Assembly: GCA_020975725.1 (NCBI GenBank) | Contig: QXJR01000023.1 | Span: forward strand, 248,001-312,000 | Origin: Picocystis sp. L7 | Lineage: Eukaryota > Chlorophyta > Picocystophyceae > Picocystales > Picocystaceae | Length of the DNA stretch: 64,000 bases | Direction: 5' to 3' | Part shown: positions 1,371-26,313 of the stretch, piece after piece | Position numbering within the stretch: position 1 is the stretch's first letter | How the letters are laid out: every line of letters starts with the position of its first letter | Position numbers and translations under genes: made by a program | The notes under the pieces: model-generated | What the model was told of the DNA's origin: nothing | Seen by the model: the letters and a program-made list of their open reading frames with translations, nothing else | Database searches by the model: none

Positions 1371-2501
1371 CGTCGATCTCCGACGGAATCGGTTGGGTTC
1401 GTAAGGGAACCTTCGGGTCTGTCCCCGAATCACAAGGGAAACGCCTTCTTTTCGAAAGGGACGTCGGTCGGGTCTGAACCCGCACGAAAAGGGGAGGAGC
1501 CGAGGTCGCCACGAGTCGGACGAACCTCGAAGGAAACATCGTCTTTGACAGGAAAGAAAGGATCGGACATGAAAGCTTTGGAACGACAAATGCGAAGCAA
1601 TGCATCGAATGCAAGGAAGTGCTGCCTTCAATTAAAGCCCTAGGGAAGCGTAGGAACACGGGGCCGTACTAGGTTGTATCCAAGGTACGATACATGCTGA
1701 GAAGCAAGATTTAGCTCGCACCCGGGACAAACCATCGAATTTGCTTCGGCTTACGAACGAAGACTTGCATCCTTCACGTTCGATCGAGCTGAGAAGAAAC
1801 CGTCGGAATTAAGTTGGCTTCAATGGATCCAACGTGCCTAGACTTTTGAATAGCACCAGGGCAAATGATGGTTGGTTCAATTGAAAGGCCAACCTGTCAA
1901 GCTCAAGCAATCGAATGCGCTCGACCCTTTCGACAAAAGAATGAGTAGAAATCAACCTATCATGATGTTTTCTATTGATGCAATGGACGGGCGATCCATC
2001 GGACTCCCCAATCTTTGCATCACCGGGTGGCCCTTTGCAAACGTGCTTCGGACATGTGTGCATGTCAATGTGGATCGGACGCTATTGCACGGTTCGACGG
2101 AGTGAAATTGTCGTGAATCTCACGTTCGACCGCGACCTCGTTCTTAGCTGGCTTGCCTTTACCCGTAATGGAAAGGCATTCCAAGTTGTTGGTAACGACC
2201 ACGAGCTCTTCGCTCGACTTCGGGACAATGAAAGCTCAAAGAGACCAGTGCTTCGTTCTACTGGGCTCTTGCATTCATATACGATTGCGCGTGGGCTCAG
2301 GAGGTCGTGCGGACGCGCATGGATGCACTTGAGCCTCGGCACGCCTTTCGACCTTCTCATCCCTTCGAATGAAACTTAACCCGACGAAAACTTCCTCTCC
2401 TTGCGAGGAGGCGACTCCGCCGACACCTAGACACCTTCTGTCGGATCCCTTCCGGATTGGTGAGATTCACCTGTGGTCTTCTGAAGGCACCAGACACGAC
2501 C
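1371..2501. other. Divergent intergenic region, EBP2/TRM61
   Basis: 1.1 kb between the two start codons. No open frame looks coding. Bases 1410-1424 (CCTTCGGGTCTGTCC) match 15 consecutive bases of the 24 kb hairpin repeat unit, 40 bp upstream of the EBP2 start; this is a single isolated copy. The rest is mixed-composition sequence without recognisable repeats. Confidence 0.5.
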
Positions 2502-3790: not shown

Positions 3791-5152
3791 ATGGACGTGG
3801 CCATGCCGACGCCTTCGACGCGCGTTTCGGCGTCTCCAGCGCCTTCCTGCGCGCTGCACGCGCGAGAGACCTGCCCGTGGGCCAAGGAAGCGGCCTGGAG
3901 CGCCTGGGCCGCCACCCGTCTGGCGCCGACGCGGCTCCTGGGCGGCGGAGGGAGGTGCGAAGGCGCATCCGTCGCCTTGGCCTTCGCCAAGCAAGGACGC
4001 CTCCTGGCGTCTGCATCTCGATGCGACGGACGCGTGCGCGTCTTCGACGCCTCCTCTGGAACCGTGCTGCTCCACTTCGACGCTGGACACCGCGAGAAGC
4101 TGCTCCACTTGGCCTGGAACCGCGAAGCAGACGCCATCTACACCGTGGGAAGAGACGGATGTGCGCGCGCACACGCGCTCCGAAGGGACGCCGCCACCGT
4201 GCTCGTGCCGCACGAAGCACGCGTCGTGTCCTGCGCCGATCACAGGTGCGTCCTGGTGGGATGTGCGGACGGGAAGCTCAGAGAACGCGACCTGAGGTGT
4301 CGAAACGTGCGCGTGGTCGCCCAAGGTCGTGGCGCGTGCGCGTCCTTGGACGTCCCGGAAGACGCGAACATGGCCGCCGTGGGACTCGAAGAAGGACGTG
4401 CTGGAGTGCTGGATCGGAGGAAGTGCGGCACCTGGCTCGAGACATGGGCAGGAAGAGGTGCGAGGGAAGGTCCGACACACAGCGTGCAGCTCGTGCGCGG
4501 TGGTAGGACGATGCTCGCCGACGTGGCGGGGGTAGGAACCAGGATCTACGACGTGGGCAAGCAAAGCACCAGAGGAGAATGCCTAGGGCACCTCAACGGG
4601 AGGAACGCGGCGGCACAGATGGCGGTCTTCGGGGAGAAAGAAGAGTACCTGGCCGTGGGATCCAGGAACCGGGACATCTTCGTGTATCAACTGGACACTG
4701 GTGTGCTGGTGGATCTCCTGAAGCATCCAGAAGACCCGAACGAAGGTGCCGCCACGGGAAGGACAAACATCCGCAGCTGGGATCCACTGCGTGACGAACA
4801 AGTGGATATGGATCGCCTGCCCCGGCTGCTGAGGCTGAGGAGGATGCATCCGGCCGGACTGGTGGAATGGGAAGCGAAAATGCCAACGATGGGTGGAGAA
4901 CCACAAGTTGCAGCCACGGGATGCAGGGGCATGTTTGCACCTGCCTTTGCTTCCTGCGGAGCCAACCAAACCATTGCGCTGTGGTACCCGGACGCAGACC
5001 TTCCCGCCGCACGAGGGCTCGGACGGGCACACAGGACTGTTCACATTAACGCATGCCTCTCCCGTGCACAGCTAGAAGATTTGGAAGGTTTGGAACATCA
5101 CTTTGACTCTAACACATTCCGTAGGAGATTGGAAAACTGCACGGTATCCTGA
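3791..5152 (+). CDS. WD40-repeat protein, unassigned
   Basis: 453 residues with a beta-propeller pattern: repeated strands ending in RVFD/ARAH/IFVYQLD-type motifs, for example SRCDGRVRVFDASSGTVLLHF (about 76-97) and a final SCGANQTIALWYPD blade (about 406-419). Six or seven degenerate blades can be traced. The N-terminal 45 residues are Ala/Pro/Ser-rich and look disordered. Such proteins are scaffolds for complexes; I cannot assign the subfamily. The very high GC of the first 600 bases contrasts with the more moderate 3' half. Single exon, with a GTTAAC motif 22 bp upstream. Converges on FES1. Confidence 0.75.
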   Translation: MDVAMPTPSTRVSASPAPSCALHARETCPWAKEAAWSAWAATRLAPTRLLGGGGRCEGASVALAFAKQGRLLASASRCDGRVRVFDASSGTVLLHFDAGHREKLLHLAWNREADAIYTVGRDGCARAHALRRDAATVLVPHEARVVSCADHRCVLVGCADGKLRERDLRCRNVRVVAQGRGACASLDVPEDANMAAVGLEEGRAGVLDRRKCGTWLETWAGRGAREGPTHSVQLVRGGRTMLADVAGVGTRIYDVGKQSTRGECLGHLNGRNAAAQMAVFGEKEEYLAVGSRNRDIFVYQLDTGVLVDLLKHPEDPNEGAATGRTNIRSWDPLRDEQVDMDRLPRLLRLRRMHPAGLVEWEAKMPTMGGEPQVAATGCRGMFAPAFASCGANQTIALWYPDADLPAARGLGRAHRTVHINACLSRAQLEDLEGLEHHFDSNTFRRRLENCTVS

Positions 5153-5544
5153 GTTGGAGCAATCCCTACTCGGATGGCCCAAGGACAGGCACGCACGTGT
5201 ACTCCACCATGCCCATTCCTACTCGGCGAGCATCGAAGTACATGCCCAGATCTAGGGCGCACGAGGTTTGCAAATAACGCGGATGCATGACATTCAATAT
5301 CCAGTGGACATCCTTGGTGCAGCCATGGCGAAGCCCCCTCACGACGAACACCACCGCGGTGATCAGCACTCTGCATGCCCACCCTTGCCAAACGAGTGAA
5401 CGTACGTCTGACAAGGACAGACGCCAAACTGTCGAGCCAAGTGCCTCATCGCAGTTTGTTAATTCGACAGAGCTTGAAAGAGCAATGTTCGCCCTTTGCA
5501 TTCATCAGAATGCTCACAAGTAGAGCGTTCGTACGAGCGATGTC
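5153..5544. other. Convergent 3' spacer
   Basis: 392 bp between the WD40 and FES1 stop codons. Nothing recognisable is seen; it should hold both 3' UTRs. Confidence 0.5.
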
Positions 5545-6556
5545 TCAGGGTGCTTCATCCAGAACAAGCTTTTGTAACTGCTTAATCATGGCATGCTCGT
5601 CAAGCACAGTTTCCTCGTCTTCCCTGTCCACAGCCCGCAGCGCTTTGTCGCGGACTTCCAAGGCTGCTGGCAGTGTGCTTTCCCGAGCCTGGTGGAGTGC
5701 TGTCGGATCGGCATTGTATACCACGAGCAGCAAAGAGAGGGCAGCCTCTCTCATTCCGCTGTCTTCGTGATCGATCAATCGCTCGAACTTTTCAGGGAGT
5801 CCGAGGGAGGCGATTATGCGCGCTTCCGAAGGCTCTTCCATTGCGATTGCGGCCAAGAGCTGGGCAATCTTGCGTTGTGTTCTGCTGTCCCCGTCGCTCT
5901 CATCCAGCAGCTTCAAAAGCGCCTCGTATCCTTTGCTTTCGCGAAAGGCTTCCCGTGCCGGTCGGTACCCCCTCACCAAACAAGACACGGCTAGCATACC
6001 TTTCGTCCTGCAGATGGCCACCGGATCTTCCAAGAGCTTGAGCACTTGTTGCAGAGCACCGCCTTCCAGGGCCCATTCCTGCGCGTGTGGATTGTTTTGC
6101 ACGCTTGTGGCGATGACTTCTGCGGCCCTGGACCTGAGTTTCGCTTGGTTGCATTGGGTGAGTTTCATCAGCACGCCGAACCCTCCCACACCTTTGAGAT
6201 CTTTGGCGTTGTCGATGCTTTCCACCAGGTCCTGCATTTCCTCCAGCAGCTCTGCTTTGGCGTCGACGAACTGTTCTTCGGTGTATCCTTCCGGGGGATC
6301 TTCGAGTTCCAGCACGTACGCGATTTCCTGCACCATGTGTCAGCTCTGGTTTCTTTCCACCTCGGCAATTTCGCTCGCATGGTTTCGCGCCACACACCTT
6401 CATCCTTTGCACTTGATCGATCATGTCTTGTTTCATGGCCGTTTCGAGCCATTTCCGTTCGGTTTCGTCCAGTTCTTTCGCGGGTGCGGTTCCGTCCACA
6501 TACTGGGTGCTCCATTTCAGCAGCGCCTGCCAGTTCGGATCGCCTCGCCTGGACAT
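5545..6556 (-). CDS. FES1: Hsp70 nucleotide-exchange factor FES1/HSPBP1
   Basis: Armadillo-repeat nucleotide exchange factor that releases ADP from cytosolic Hsp70. Two exons: 6556-6398 and 6327-5545, joined across a 70-nt intron (6328-6397, GTGTGTGG...GGTGCAG). Splicing restores 313 residues: an N-terminal LLKWS...DETERKWLETAMK..DMIDQVQRMK block, typical of Fes1, joined to EIAYVLELEDPPEG. Repeats follow: GGFGVLMKLTQC, AAEVIATSVQNNP.AQEWALEGGALQQVL, CRTKGMLAVSCLVRGYRPA and REAALSLLLVVYNAD. The start at 6556 (MSRRGDPNW) is preferred, though an in-frame ATG at 6616 would add 20 residues. Divergent from MED6. Confidence 0.93.
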
Positions 6557-6624
6557 CTCGCACGTGAAACGCGCTTGTGTCGCAGCGAATTCCGTGCTGC
6601 ACCGCCTCTTCGCCACGCCTTCGA

Positions 6625-6642
6625 GTTAACCATCCGGTTAAC
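6625..6642. promoter_or_regulatory. Paired GTTAAC dyad
   Basis: Two GTTAAC hexamers, 6625-6630 and 6637-6642, sit as an inverted pair (CGAGTTAACC..CCGGTTAACCTCG) 69 bp upstream of the FES1 start and in the shared FES1/MED6 promoter. A similar pair lies upstream of ORC6. Confidence 0.45.
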
Positions 6643-6726
6643 CTCGTCCCCATCGGTCGAGGCCACGGGAAAAGGGGGGCATTCCCCAACGCTTCCCTCC
6701 CAGGTGCCCCCCTTCCCTTCAAGTGG

Positions 6727-6802
6727 GTGCGACTGGCGGTGGGGTGTGACTGCTCTTGGGGGGGTGCGACTGGCGGTGGGGTGTGACTGCTCTTGGGGGT
6801 GT
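6727..6802 (+). repeat. 38-bp tandem duplication in the FES1/MED6 promoter
   Basis: Two near-identical copies of a unit beginning GTGCGACTGGCGGTGGGG and ending in TGCTCTTGGGG, starting at 6727 and 6765, immediately upstream of the MED6 start. G-rich on this strand. Confidence 0.85.
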
Positions 6803-6833: not shown

Positions 6834-7604
6834 ATGGAGGCGGACAGGAGCACGTGGACGGAGGAAGATCCGAAGCACGTGGTGTTTCGATTCGATCCTT
6901 GGCTGGCGACCTTTCCACTGACCGAGAACTCGGCGATGGAGTACTTCAGCCTCTCCCCCTTCTACGACCACACGTGCACCAACGAAGGGCTGCGTGCCCA
7001 AGGGATGCGGATGGACGATGGAGAAGCGTTGAAGGAAAGGACGGGAATGGAGTACGTCGTCATGGCCGCCAAACCACCCCATCTCTTCGCCATCGCCAAA
7101 AGGAAGAGAACCAGCCCGCACAAAACCAACATCGTCGCCATGTACTACATCCTGGACGGGAACGTGTATCAAGCCCCGACGCTCCGAGACGTCATCAGCA
7201 GCAGGACGGTGCGTCGAAAAACGCGAATGCGACGGGGAAAAGAAGGCGCAGTGCGATGCAAAGGGGTGAAGAAAGAAGGACTGACGATCGAAAGCGTCCG
7301 AATACGGCAGGAGAGAGCCCTGTTCAACCTGCGCGAAGCTTTCGCCTTGCTGCAGGAGGAATTGGACCTGGATGGAAAGGAAGGAGACGGTGAAATGGAA
7401 GAACGCGTCCTTCATGCCATGGAAGAACCTCGCTCGGAACACGACGTCGAAGAACGAGCCCGATTCCAACGCACGATGCTCGCGGTCCTGCGCAAGCATC
7501 CGGTGAGTTGGGAACCGAACGAAGAACAGCTGCAGGTCCAGAAACGCGTGCAAGAACAGACCTTGGACGAAGGAAGGGAAGGGACCGCGAAAGGAATCGA
7601 TTGA
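6834..7604 (+). CDS. MED6: Mediator complex subunit 6
   Basis: Head-module subunit of Mediator, bridging activators and RNA polymerase II in the nucleus. The MED6 signature is clear: FDPWLATFPLTENSAMEYFS, LSPFYDHTCTNEGLRAQG, GMEYVVMAAKPPHLFAIAKR and YYILDGNVYQAPTLRDVISS. An intron is inferred at 7209-7310 (102 nt, GTGCGTCG...TACGGCAG, with CTGAC inside). It has no in-frame stop, but it separates VISSRT from ERALFNLREAFALLQ, which are adjacent in the family, and the intervening 34 residues are unlike MED6. The spliced protein has about 222 residues. Start at 6834 (MEADRST) lies directly before the conserved block. Confidence 0.92.
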   Translation: MEADRSTWTEEDPKHVVFRFDPWLATFPLTENSAMEYFSLSPFYDHTCTNEGLRAQGMRMDDGEALKERTGMEYVVMAAKPPHLFAIAKRKRTSPHKTNIVAMYYILDGNVYQAPTLRDVISSRTVRRKTRMRRGKEGAVRCKGVKKEGLTIESVRIRQERALFNLREAFALLQEELDLDGKEGDGEMEERVLHAMEEPRSEHDVEERARFQRTMLAVLRKHPVSWEPNEEQLQVQKRVQEQTLDEGREGTAKGID

Positions 7605-7731
7605 GCAGGAAAGTAGCACGAAGAAACACAGATAGAACCACGAAAAGCACGCCTGGATTATTGGAGACACGCACACGCGAACGGCACAGGAACAACGTGT
7701 TCTCGACAGCCTACGCACGTCCGCACCGGCT

Positions 7732-8156
7732 TCAAAGGTCGTCGATTTCCATGCCGGCCTCGTTCTGAAGCATCTCCTTGACCTGCTGCTTGGTAGCAGC
7801 ATCCTTTATTTTGATCCCACGGAACACCACGTTTTTCCTGAGCTTGATTCCCTTTCCTTTCTTCTTGGCTTTCTTCGTGCCCCCATCCACCGCCATCTTC
7901 GAATCACGCGCACGTCAGGAGATCGAGACAACGCGAAGGAGTCAGTTCCCGCTCGTCCCAAAGCCGCCTTCGCACGCCATCTTCGAGACCGTCGTTCCGA
8001 GCGCGACAGCTCGTCCATTCCAGCACGCACCTTGTTCTCCGCCGCACTCTGCTTCCGTTCCCGCTTTGCGGCCCGCTTCTGTTCGAGTTCCTTCTCCCTT
8101 TGCAGATGGAACTCGTGGGCGTTCTTCCTCGTCTTGAGGTTGTTCTTCTTCGACAT
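7732..8156 (-). CDS. Small basic nuclear-type protein, unassigned (two exons)
   Basis: Exons 8156-8031 and 7896-7732 join across a 134-nt intron (7897-8030, GTGCGTGC...GATTCGAAG), giving 96 residues. Exon 1 encodes MSKKNNLKTRKNAHEF then an E/K/R-rich coiled helix; exon 2 encodes a lysine cluster (KKAKKKGKGIKLRKNVVFRG) then a short amphipathic helix and an acidic MEIDDL end. The composition suggests a ribosome-biogenesis or nucleolar factor, but I do not recognise the family and infer no function. Both exons are in phase 0 and each is clearly coding in character, so a real gene is likely. It lies tail to tail with MED6. Confidence 0.65.
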
Positions 8157-14427: not shown

Positions 14428-14493
14428 TTTCGGGGGGGTCGGAAGGGCGGGTCCATCCCGGGGGAAGAAGGAGACCCACGAACGGACAGAAAG

Positions 14494-15024
14494 GGGTGAA
14501 AGGAAGGGTAGAAAGGAAGGGTAGATGGGGCAGAAAGGAAGCGTAGAAAGGGGAGAAAAGAAGGGTAGATAGGACAGAAGGAAGGGTAGAAAGGGGAGAA
14601 AGGAAGATTAGAAGGAAGGGTAGATAGGAAGGGTAGATAGGACAGAAGGAAGGGTAGAAAGGGGAAAAAGGAAGATTAGAAGGAAGGGTAGATAGGACAG
14701 AAGGAAGGGTAGAAAGGGGAGAAAAGAAGATTAGAAGGAAGGGTAGAAGGAAGGGTAGATCGGACAGAAGGAAGGGTAGATAGGAAGGGTAAATAGGACA
14801 GAAGGAAGGGGAGAAAGGGGAGAAAGGAAGATTAGAAGGAAGGGTAGATAGGAAGGGTAGATAGGACAGAAGGAAGAGTAGAAAGGGGAAAAAGGAAGAT
14901 TAGAAGGAAGGGTAGATAGGAAGGGTAGATAGGACAGAAGGAAGGGTAGAAAGGGGAAAAAAGAAGGACAGAAGGAGGTGTAGAAAGGGAAAAGGGAAGG
15001 GTAGAAGGTTGAAGAGAAGGGAAG
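14494..15024 (+). repeat. Purine-only minisatellite (about 530 bp)
   Basis: Nested repeats of GGAAGGGTAGA, TAGGACAGAA, AAGGGGAGAAA and GGAAGATTAGAA in irregular order, so that this strand is almost entirely A and G with scattered T. Larger units recur at roughly 55-100 bp. It fills the divergent promoter between CCT3 and the gene at 15034, ending 10 bp before that start codon. The pyrimidine strand is open in some frames, which creates spurious Ser/Phe/Pro-rich ORFs. Confidence 0.95.
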
Positions 15025-22800: not shown

Positions 22801-24140
22801 CTAACTGGTAAGCTTCCATTGGTCCACATCGAAGGTATGCCTCCAGAAATAACTGTCCCCTTCCAAGTGCTCCGGTTCCGGAACTTTCTCCCGGCCATCA
22901 AACACCCAACATTCGTATTCGATATCGGTGATACGGCTGTAATGAATGCCATCCTTTTTGAGCAGCTCTTTCTCCCCGTGGTTGTTGGAGAAAAGATGAT
23001 TGTACTTGAGCCCGTGCTTCTTGGCATGCTCCTTGATGTCGTCCGTGTCCCAAAAGTGTCCGTGTTGAACCCATTGTGTGCCGTCCGGGAGCCGATAGAA
23101 GCAGTGTATATCCGAGTACGAGATGAGCGGCGATCCGTCTGCACCTTCGCCTAAATTGAGAGATGCACAATGCCACGGAGTGTTGATGTTGAAGGTGAAG
23201 ACGTGCGTCTTGTCGTCTGGATCTACCACATCTGCCTCTGCAAAGAACTTGACCCCGGACAGACTCTTCAGTTTGTGGAATTCCATGCCGGTGAAGCGCC
23301 GAGGAGGGCGCTTCATTTCCTGCTTGAGCGTCACACGGCTCTCGTCCGCTTCTCTCTTAGGAACCTTGGGCGGGCTGTCTTCTTCTTCCTCTTCATCCTC
23401 GTACTCGGAAGTGTCGTCGGAAGTCTCCTCCCCTTCGGAAGAATCTTCTTCCGCTTCGTCTTCCGCTTGTGGTGCCGGTTCCACCTGGGAGGGTTCGGGT
23501 GTGTCCTCTCGTCCCCTTTTGGGTTTCTTCGTCGATGGTTCTTCTATCACCGGTTCTTGGCGAACAGGTTCCGCAACCTCTGGCGCTCGTGTCGTGTCGG
23601 GTTGCGCTTGGCGGCCCAGGGTTGGAGACGCGTCGGCATGGGGTTGCGCCTCTCGAGGCCTCTTCACGGTGGTTTCGATCCCGTGCTTCGTTTGTTCGGT
23701 TGGTTTTGTCTCTGCCGGCGTTTTCTGGGCCGCTTCCATGGCTTTCTTCAGGAATTCCACGTCCTTTTCACCTCTTGGTGCTCCTGTGTTCCGGTCGGAC
23801 AGGGTCGGGAGCAATCCCAGCAGCCTGGAGCTTTCCACGAAGGTGGCATAGGCTTTCTTACCTTGCAGCACCATTTTGGCCGGGATGCGGCACAGCACTT
23901 GGGCGAGTCGATCCATGGCTTCTACGGCCATTTCTTTTTCCTTTTCGGTGGGTTCCTTCCCGCCACGCAATTTGGCCAGCACTGTGCGTCGCACGTCCAT
24001 CGGTCAGCCTTTCTCCGTCTCCTTTCGCGGTCCACCGATCTCCCACGACCTCACTCACCTGCCAGTTCTTCCACGTCCTTCGCGGACCGATCCAGGAGCG
24101 CCTCCAGCTCCACGTGGCGTCCACCGTCCTCCTCCGCCAT
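22801..24140 (-). CDS. Acidic-linker protein of unknown family
   Basis: Two exons, 24140-24059 and 23981-22801, joined across a 77-nt intron (23982-24058, GTGAGTGA...GACGCACAG); 420 residues. The N-terminal 90 residues are helical (ELEALLDRSAKDVEELAVLA, then MAVEAMDRLAQVLCRIPAK). A long disordered middle follows, Pro/Glu-rich with an almost pure acidic run. The C-terminal 160 residues form a compact, aromatic-rich domain (TPWHCASLNLGEG, SDIHCFYRLPDGTQWVQHGH, DIEYECWVFDGREKVPEPE, SYFWRHTFDVDQWKL). I do not recognise this domain. Its start codon is 77 bp from the edge of the hairpin array. Confidence 0.75.
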
Positions 24141-24216
24141 GCCTGCTTTTTCCCGCGAATCTGACCCCACCCGTTCCACACAGTTGTGATCTCCCCCCTT
24201 CACAAACCTGCCCTTC

Positions 24217-25532
24217 GTTCGAACCCCAAGTGGGGAAAGGGGAAAGGGGCGGTCTGGATCGGACAGACCCGCGTTCCTTCGGGTCTGTCCATCGATCGAA
24301 CCCCAAGAGGGGAAAGGGGAAAGGGGCGGTCTGGATCGGACAGACCCGCGTTCCTTCGGGTCTGTCCATCGATCGAACCCCAAGAGGGGAAAGGGGCGGT
24401 CTGGATCGGACAGACCCGCGTTCCTTCGGGTCTGTCCATCGATCGAACCCCAAGAGGGGAAAGGGGCGGTCTGGATCGGACAGACCCGCGTTCCTTCGGG
24501 TCTGTCCATCGATCGAACCCCAAGTGGGGAAAGGGGAAAGGGGCGGTCTGGATCGGACAGACCCGCGTTCCTTCGGGTCTGTCCATCGATCGAACCCCAA
24601 GAGGGGAAAGGGGCGGTCTGGATCGGACAGACCCGCGTTCCTTCGGGTCTGTCCATCGATCGAACCCCAAGTGGGGAAAGGGGAAAGGGGCGGTCTGGAT
24701 CGGACAGACCCGCGTTCCTTCGGGTCTGTCCATCGATCGAACCCCAAGAGGGGAAAGGGGCGGTCTGGATCGGACAGACCCGCGTTCCTTCGGGTCTGTC
24801 CATCGATCGAACCCCAAGAGGGGAAAGGGGAAAGGGGCGGTCTGGATCGGACAGACCCGCGTTCCTTCGGGTCTGTCCATCGATCGAACCCCAAGAGGGG
24901 AAAGGGGAAAGGGGCGGTCTGGATCGGACAGACCCGCGTTCCTTCGGGTCTGTCCATCGATCGAACCCCAAGAGGGGAAAGGGGAAAGGGGCGGTCTGGA
25001 TCGGACAGACCCGCGTTCCTTCGGGTCTGTCCATCGATCGAACCCCAAGAGGGGAAAGGGGAAAGGGGAAGGGCTGGATCGGACAGACCCGCGTTCCTTC
25101 GGGTCTGTCCATCGATCGAACCCCAAGAGGGGAAAGGGGCGGTCTGGATCGGACAGACCCGCGTTCCTTCGGGTCTGTCCATCGATCGAACCCCAAGAGG
25201 GGAAAGGGGAAAGGGGCGGTCTGGATCGGACAGACCCGCGTTCCTTCGGGTCTGTCCATCGATCGAACCCCAAGAGGGGAAAGGGGAAAGGGGCGGTCTG
25301 GATCGGACAGACCCGCGTTCCTTCGGGTCTGTCCATCGATCGAACCCCAAGAGGGGAAAGGGGCGGTCTGGATCGGACAGACCCGCGTTCCTTCGGGTCT
25401 GTCCATCGATCGAACCCCAAGAGGGGAAAGGGGAAAGGGGCGGTCTGGATCGGACAGACCCGCGTTCCTTCGGGTCTGTCCATCGATCGAACCCCAAGAG
25501 GGGAAAGGGGAAAGGGGAAGGGGTTGGATCGG
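24217..25532 (+). repeat. Tandem array of 17 hairpin-forming repeats
   Basis: A 1.3-kb array. Each unit has a perfect 10-bp inverted repeat (GGACAGACCC, loop GCGTTCCTTC, GGGTCTGTCC), then ATCGATCGAACCCCAAG, a GGGGAAA purine stretch and CGGTCTGGATC. Hairpins begin at 24261, 24338, 24408, 24478, 24555, 24625, 24702, 24772, 24849, 24926, 25003, 25081, 25151, 25228, 25305, 25375 and 25452. Units are 70 or 77 bp (one is 78), differing by one 7-bp purine block. The copies are otherwise nearly identical. The array fills the 1.48 kb between two divergent start codons (24140 minus, 25620 plus) and is open in several frames on both strands, producing spurious ORFs. Confidence 0.98.
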
Positions 25533-25619
25533 TCTCCAGTGCGCCGCCATCGCGATTCCATCGCGTGGATCCAAGTCGGAAACGTCGCATTCGAGGCGCA
25601 CACGCGCAGGCTCCACGTC

Positions 25620-26313
25620 ATGCCGAGGTACCATCAGGTGCGTGGAAGGACGTGGATTCGCACGGGAAGGGTCCGAAACGGATCCGGAAGGAACGCACGG
25701 ACGCTCTGCCGGTCGAAGGAGCGCCAGGCGCGAGGGTTTGGAGGACGGTGCGCTGACGGTTCTTTGCGGGACGATGGAACGCGCCACGAACGTGCAGTAC
25801 CAAGTCGTGGGACGCCACTTGCCCACGGAGAAAGAGCCGGAGCCGAAGATCTATCGCATGAAGCTGTTCGCCACCGACCACGTGCGTGCCAAGAGCAAGT
25901 TCTGGTACTTTTTGAAGAAGCTCGCGCGTGTGAAGAAAGCGAACGGACAGGTCCTGGCGTGCAACGAGATCTTCGAGAAGAAGCCGACCACGGTGAAGAA
26001 CTACGGCATCTGGGTCCGCTACCAGTCGCGAACGGGCTATCACAACGCGTACAAGGAATACCGGGACACGACGCTCAACGGCGCCGTGGATCAGCTCTAC
26101 GACGAGATGGCGTCTCGCCACAGGGTCCGTGCGCCGTGCGTGCAGATCATCAAGACCGGCGTCGTGCCGGCCAAGCTGTGCAAGCGCGCCAACACCCGAC
26201 AGTTCCACGACCTGAACATCAAGTTCCCGCTGGCCCAGAAGATCATGCGTCCTTCTTCCAAGACGTACAAGACCACGTTCAAGGCTGTGCGTCCCAACGT
26301 CGCGGTCTACTGA
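25620..26313 (+). CDS. RPL18A: 60S ribosomal protein eL20 (L18a)
   Basis: Cytosolic large-subunit ribosomal protein. Two exons: 25620-25637 (MPRYHQ) and 25798-26313; intron 160 nt (GTGCGTGG...AACGTGCAG). The joined start [16 protein letters not shown] matches the plant pattern RFHQYQVVGRALPT, which supports this tiny first exon over the in-frame ATG at 25774. The rest is highly conserved: [74 protein letters not shown] and [13 protein letters not shown]. 177 residues. Its whole upstream region back to the divergent gene is the hairpin array, which ends 88 bp before the ATG. Confidence 0.95.

Follow-up and report, generated by a model that had tools for sequence, protein, structure and literature searches.

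A homogenised array of inverted-repeat units between divergent eL20 and DUF7797 genes in Picocystis sp. L7, possibly an expanded promoter motif

The array and the genes beside it

The window (the whole 64-kb stretch of DNA that was analysed, C21:248001-312000, numbered here from its first letter) contains a tandem array in the spacer between two divergent genes, a DUF7797-domain gene on the minus strand and the ribosomal protein gene eL20 on the plus strand. The features of the locus are as follows.

24059-24140, minus strand: predicted first exon of the DUF7797-domain gene (ATG at 24140), with a predicted intron at 23982-24058 and the main exon at 22801-23981
24217-25532, no strand assigned: tandem array of 17 full units of 70, 77 or 78 bp and a partial eighteenth
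24219-24249, plus strand: example of the part between hairpins, TCGAACCCCAAGT followed by the purine tract GGGGAAAGGGGAAAGGGG
24261-24290, no strand assigned: first of 17 identical inverted repeats, GGACAGACCCG-N8-CGGGTCTGTCC, from letters and folds
24338, 24408, 24478, 24555, 24625, 24702, 24772, 24849, 24926, 25003, 25081, 25151, 25228, 25305, 25375 and 25452: starts of the remaining inverted repeats
24276-24290, minus strand: GGACAGACCCGAAGG, first of its 17 copies on this strand, in the sense direction of the DUF7797 gene and 136-150 bp from the predicted ATG of that gene
25038-25115, plus strand: odd unit 12 of 78 bp, containing GGGGAAGGG, which resembles the right-hand edge of the array
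25487-25532, plus strand: partial unit 18, grading into single-copy flank (GGGGAAGGGGTTGGATCGGTCTCC)
25620-25637, plus strand: predicted first exon of eL20 (MPRYHQ), with a predicted intron at 25638-25797 and the second exon at 25798-26313

Both splice models are predictions from sequence. Under its model eL20 begins MPRYHQYQVVGR at 25620, and predicted splicing raised the DUF7797 score from 31.1 to 36.2 bits. With the two models the divergent spacer (24141-25619) measures 1,479 bp, of which the array takes up about 89%, leaving flanks of 76 and 87 bp between the array and the predicted start codons. A sequence-only reading of this DNA had given a 1.48-kb gap between the start codons; this figure requires a small 5' intron in each of the two genes and does not hold for the intron-less ORFs, which start at 24000 (minus strand, DUF7797 gene) and 25774 (plus strand, eL20). 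The array lies upstream of two start codons with the predicted introns and also between the intron-less ORF starts. No reading frame is kept through it: unit lengths of 70, 77 and 78 bp are mixed, so the frame shifts from unit to unit and the array is not a protein-coding repeat.

All 17 hairpins reported in the sequence-only reading were recovered, as inverted repeats of 30 nt each that are identical to the letter, span 24261-25481 and are spaced at 70, 77 or 78 bp. The hairpin is perfect, as had been described, but the stem of 10 bp with a loop of 10 bases has to be redrawn as a stem of 11 bp with a loop of 8 nt, because C-G/G-C pairs close the 10-nt loop, and DNA and RNA folds agree on this. 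Perfect stems of at least 10 bp (loops of 3-20) occurred at 17 sites in the array, compared with four in the rest of the window and eight in 200 kb from 20 other contigs, which argues that the array stems did not arise by chance.

Seven units are of 77 bp, three are of 77 bp with T for A, six are of 70 bp and one is of 78 bp. The A-to-T change falls at unit position 13 of units 1, 5 and 7, and the length differences reflect two versus three copies of GGGGAAA, unit 12 being odd. Most of the variation among units is thus in the number of GGGGAAA steps, and the rest consists of the single A/T site and unit 12. Length-normalised substitution divergence among 16 equal-length units was 0.46% which, together with 17 identical cores, bears out the earlier suggestion of recent expansion or homogenisation. 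The purine richness noticed on one strand between the hairpins was likewise confirmed, with G 323 and A 233 against C 158 and T 92 once the hairpins were removed. Minisatellites are defined by a unit of 10-60 or 10-100 bp in the part of PMC3887541 that gives the definition, and 17 head-to-tail units of 70, 77 or 78 bp fall within a range of about 10-100 bp. The array had the top TRF score (2261, the next being 1499) among 16 non-overlapping tandem arrays scoring at least 100 in 264 kb.

The hairpin form allows two readings based on structure. In one, the stems and purine tracts would extrude as cruciform, triplex or G-quadruplex and so set nucleosome or replication behaviour. The 11-bp stem reached -20.7 kcal/mol as RNA, a two-unit DNA fold gave a z of -3.9 with none of 200 shuffles as good, the purine tract is mirror-symmetric, and canonical G-quadruplex strings are present in two units. 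These strings, however, are confined to units 12 and 18, and paired copies of a promoter motif, considered below, can account for the arms of the dyad; such structures may form but would not be needed, and we regard this explanation as unlikely. In the other, the array would be transcribed into hairpin RNA, serving as a source of small RNAs or as a structured non-coding RNA. Two-unit RNA folds gave a z of -2.5 on the plus strand (2 of 200 shuffles as good) and -3.7 on the minus strand (0 of 200). Against this, the window held no Rfam match at gathering score and no tRNA, and stems that do not vary in sequence offer no covariation to read; a hairpin RNA would be a very improbable account of the array.

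Genomic distribution and edges of the array

The genome searched comprised 20.5 Mb in 30 contigs. Its ATP synthase beta was closest to chain 6rd4, from Polytomella, and its eL20 to chains from plants, which suggests the green lineage, and a test for red-algal descent with the phycobilisome linker family gave no match. A DNA search with 184 array bases returned seven matches, all inside the array, and the 20-mer of the stem with up to three mismatches returned 23, of which 17 were in the array and six elsewhere (control 1). Unit matches in the array DNA and stem searches came from one contig and none from any other, so the array is not a genome-wide or centromeric satellite, and dispersed copies of the whole element were not found in the genome searches. 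The exact purine tract GGGGAAAGGGGAAAGGGG occurred outside the array at one place only (C8), with no other unit sequence in 1.1 kb there. A single locus with near-identical units is in keeping with a recently homogenised minisatellite. A pair of a long unit with the T variant and a short unit is repeated in units 5-6 and 7-8, and such repeated pairs, with the near-identity, would fit unequal exchange.

Homology is graded at both edges of the array, with TTCGTTCGAACCCCAAG on the left and GGGGAAGGGGTTGGATCGG on the right; the latter is like unit 12, with which the right edge has GGGGAAGGG in common. This grading fits a local origin of the array. A transposon, MITE or viral insertion with internal repeats is disfavoured and would be the least probable origin of those weighed here. 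Related dyads do occur elsewhere in the genome, and on either side of the array, at 24070-24081 and 25645-25656, stand the arms of a 12-bp inverted repeat without mismatch, TCCACGTCCTTC/GAAGGACGTGGA. However, one arm of this repeat is in a predicted exon and the other in a predicted intron, and it holds GACGTG, which is itself enriched upstream of genes; it was therefore not read as transposon ends. Further points against insertion are that in the searches made the unit is confined to one locus, with edges grading into the local flank, that the edges carry no direct repeat of at least 12 nt (shorter ones being unscored), and that no exact 30-mer was present in viral_contigs or genome_contigs (viral, bacterial and archaeal collections).

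Other repeats and loci were met in the window and in the sampled contigs. A second purine-rich tandem array, made of AAGGAAGGGTAGAAAGGGGAG-like units and repeatedly GGACAGAAGGAAGG, occupies 14484-14989 of the window, with a minus-strand gene on one side that we take to encode a CCT chaperonin and, on the other, a plus-strand gene whose start is at about 15034. At C18:100001-110000, a 1.9-kb array (4885-6771 of that locus) has a 14-bp unit, CTGCTGGATGGATG, in about 135 copies with 70% matches. Near the start of the contig that holds the window (C21:1-10000, at 7320-7951 of that locus), 75-bp repeats found by TRF read as FDQDIGSWDTSQVTNM-like protein repeats, presumably of BspA type. The locus C30:1-10000, on a contig of 61,624 bases, is AT-rich and organelle-like, with frames that we take to be PsbB, PetB, PetD, Rps14, NdhC, NdhK and NdhB; plastid ndh genes would be uncommon in a green alga whose genome is this small.

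Promoter words in the unit

The 77-bp unit was scored with upstream models of order 2, 3 or 4 set against downstream or coding models, with loci held out. At order 4 against downstream, 4 of 341 upstream windows scored at least as high as the unit, and none of 242 downstream windows or 300 shuffles did; an earlier and smaller order-4 test had given 0 of 204 upstream windows. The unit was less exceptional against downstream at lower order, its score being reached by 25 of 341 upstream and 3 of 242 downstream windows at order 3 and by 21 and 6, respectively, at order 2, with no shuffles in either case. With coding sequence as the reference at order 4, the score was equalled or exceeded in 10 of 341 upstream windows and in none of 2,687 coding windows. 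The unit thus scores as promoter-like. A scan for bacterial-type promoters and terminators, which is not apt for a eukaryote, found nothing.

On the minus strand the array stem contains GACAGACCCGAAGG, whereas the plus-strand arm, toward eL20, carries ACCCGCG only and not the full motif. We counted 6-mers in 284 kb in which 84 ORF genes had been called, partitioned into 75 upstream regions (17,225 bp, the array excluded), 13,025 bp of downstream sequence and 106,392 bp of coding sequence. Gene starts for the 75 upstream regions were taken from ORF calls, which introns can shift, and the sample includes L037, chosen for holding a near match, a small bias. ACCCGA/TCGGGT was seen 34 times in the 17.2 kb upstream, compared with 13.6 expected from an order-2 model, which placed it ninth by excess among 1,905 6-mers. 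Set against 0 in 13.0 kb downstream, the same 34 put it at the top of the 1,905; 41 were found in 106 kb of coding sequence. The word was present in 26 of the 75 sampled upstream regions. Of its 34 upstream occurrences 19 were sense and 15 antisense, and this antisense share counts against reading it as a promoter motif. It had the highest upstream count among its 60 letter permutations, the nearest being CGAACC (32) and GAACCC (31), both of which overlap the surroundings of the motif and also occur downstream (10 and 9).

Further words of the unit were enriched upstream relative to downstream, namely GATCGA (39 to 7), AAAGGGG (13 to 0) and ATCGAT (15 to 2 sites; being a palindrome, 30 to 4 when both strands are counted). 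None of the 8-mers of the unit was threefold over-represented in the whole 263-kb sample, and the enrichment emerged once upstream regions were set apart from the rest. Words other than those of the array were also enriched in the 75 upstream regions, AGTTAA/TTAACT with 17 against 0 downstream and CACGTC/GACGTG with 43 against 3, which makes them candidate promoter elements of other kinds.

The minus-strand reading of the stem, RACAGACCCGAAGG, occurred at 30 sites in the genome, 17 in the array and 13 others, one of them in the window, whereas its reversed control occurred once. The unit therefore holds promoter-enriched sequence by two counts, the ACCCGA excess upstream over downstream and these 13 further sites against one. 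With up to two mismatches the 15-mer gave 69 + 109 matches, the 17 array copies included, against 32 + 40 for the control, an excess of only about twofold. A single copy outside the array lies near another gene of the window:

1410-1424, minus strand: GGACAGACCCGAAGG, sense to the minus-strand gene that begins at 1370 and 54 bp before its ATG

A full copy at C17:495236 (L064) is sense and 72 bp before an ATG that opens MAAFAEMGLMPELVRAVEEMGWR, a start recognised by eye where no ORF had been called; this sequence resembles a DEAD-box Q motif. It is one of an inverted pair, at C17:495184 (minus) and 495236 (plus), whose members face outward, whereas those in the array stand head to head. Pieces of the stem were also found upstream of coding-like frames at L042, L043 and L049. 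The first 11 letters of the motif alone are sense at 57 bp (L043) and 68 bp (L042) upstream of ORF starts, and at L049 they are sense at 80 or 141 bp, depending on the start chosen. At L062 an ATG 75 bp past the motif opens a frame that has no coding score, and L061 and L063 showed no coding-like start close to the motif.

The dyad GACCCG-N8-CGGGTC occurred at six sites outside the array (control 1), and the full arms with up to three mismatches at three (control 0), one of which, C15:407889, has ACCGG/CCGGT in place of ACCCG/CGGGT in both arms. ACCCGAA-N2-8-TTCGGGT was found at 12 sites against 1 for the control, a count weakened to six because L048, L053 and L054 fall within coding-like frames and L044, L051 and L052 have one repeated sequence in common. 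Inverted repeats of 6 bp numbered 1,096 overall with 971 expected, an excess so small that hairpins as such do not form a strong genome-wide class. Two strong palindromes built on the ACCCGAA core were observed, CCAATCGAACCCGAA-GGCG-TTCGGGTTCGATTGG at about 280-325 of L046 (C12:547920-548520) and CGATCGAACCCGAA-TCGT-TTCGGGTTCGATCG at L045.

Searching the genome for the unit and its stem, as the sequence-only reading had proposed, gave two different results: in these searches the full unit is restricted to one locus and the stem word recurs genome-wide. That reading would have taken a single locus with no positional pattern for a plain satellite. The single locus was found, but the lack of pattern was not, as the stem word is enriched upstream and absent from the sampled downstream sequence. 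The array therefore qualifies neither as a satellite with arbitrary letters nor as a dispersed element.

Proposed origin and role

On balance, and by no wide measure, we favour the view that the array is a minisatellite, recently expanded and homogenised, that developed within a short bidirectional promoter of the DUF7797 gene and eL20, amplifying a dyad of a promoter motif, and that its copies probably act. The computed basis is a single locus in the searches made, near-identity of the units, a promoter-like vocabulary and upstream enrichment of the motif core. From these letters we infer protein binding to the motif, an effect on expression and the route of expansion. The ancestral promoter would have been short, with a dyad of the promoter-proximal motif (R)ACAGACCCGAAGG and a purine tract. 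Replication slippage or unequal exchange would then have multiplied it about 17-fold, a process that the hairpin-prone dyad and the GGGGAAA micro-repeat may have helped along. Upstream of both start sites, the copies probably serve as a homotypic site cluster, as a spacer poor in nucleosomes, or as both, and their effect on output may be modest or buffered. The hairpin symmetry would also follow, with no need for extrusion, if the unit held a promoter motif as a double-stranded dyad.

The main rival is a neutral version of the same expansion history, in which the array is a plain minisatellite whose motif content is a by-product of its birthplace, its copies are inert and the 76- and 87-bp flanks hold both promoters. 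We consider this clearly less probable, though a serious contender. It agrees with the single locus, the near-identical units and the scope for slippage in the purine micro-repeat, and other minisatellites are present (the 16 arrays scoring at least 100 in 264 kb), among them the purine array that occupies another divergent spacer (14484-14989). What speaks against neutrality is that the words of the unit are promoter words and that the 17 stems are unchanged while the purine part varies in length, an observation for which recency alone could also account. A stronger functional version, in which (R)ACAGACCCGAAGG would be an undescribed inverted-pair dyad used genome-wide and the number of copies, 17, would set the joint output of eL20 and the DUF7797 gene as a tunable bidirectional promoter, seems to us doubtful.

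No published description of the motif or the array was among the matches listed in a literature search. The statement in the sequence-only reading that no element of this design has been described was nevertheless too strong, since promoter minisatellites with regulatory sites in the unit are already known. The human reduced folate carrier promoter has a 61-bp tandem repeat that binds Sp1/AP2 in vitro, and polymorphism and an effect on expression have been reported for it (PMC3899988, in the passages on that repeat). There, as here, a promoter unit of minisatellite size carries regulatory sites, bound in vitro in that case and putative in ours; unlike that repeat, the array has a dyad/hairpin unit, lies between a divergent gene pair and is known from a single reference. 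Yeast promoters contain tandem repeats with possible exclusion of nucleosomes (Vinces et al. 2009, as related in part of PMC3899988); the array shares with these its place in a promoter region, and differs in having GC-rich units with inverted repeats. Regulatory sites can form by local duplication according to the portion of PMC3188502 concerned with their origin, in which higher eukaryotes are contrasted with unicellular ones, the latter being seen as simpler. The neighbouring sites of the array would likewise have a common origin but, in contrast to that view, there are 17 near-identical copies in what is probably a unicellular alga. In unit length, tandem order and homogenisation the array resembles minisatellites generally, as characterised in the defining text of PMC3887541, and it departs from them in a unit that consists of promoter words and contains a perfect dyad.

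Through the array, a repeat of odd appearance is linked to a promoter motif found repeatedly in a small eukaryotic genome. Functional copies would provide a natural dose series of how many copies of an element a ribosomal-protein promoter can carry; copies without function would give a measure of the amount of neutral repeat that is tolerated in an essential divergent promoter.
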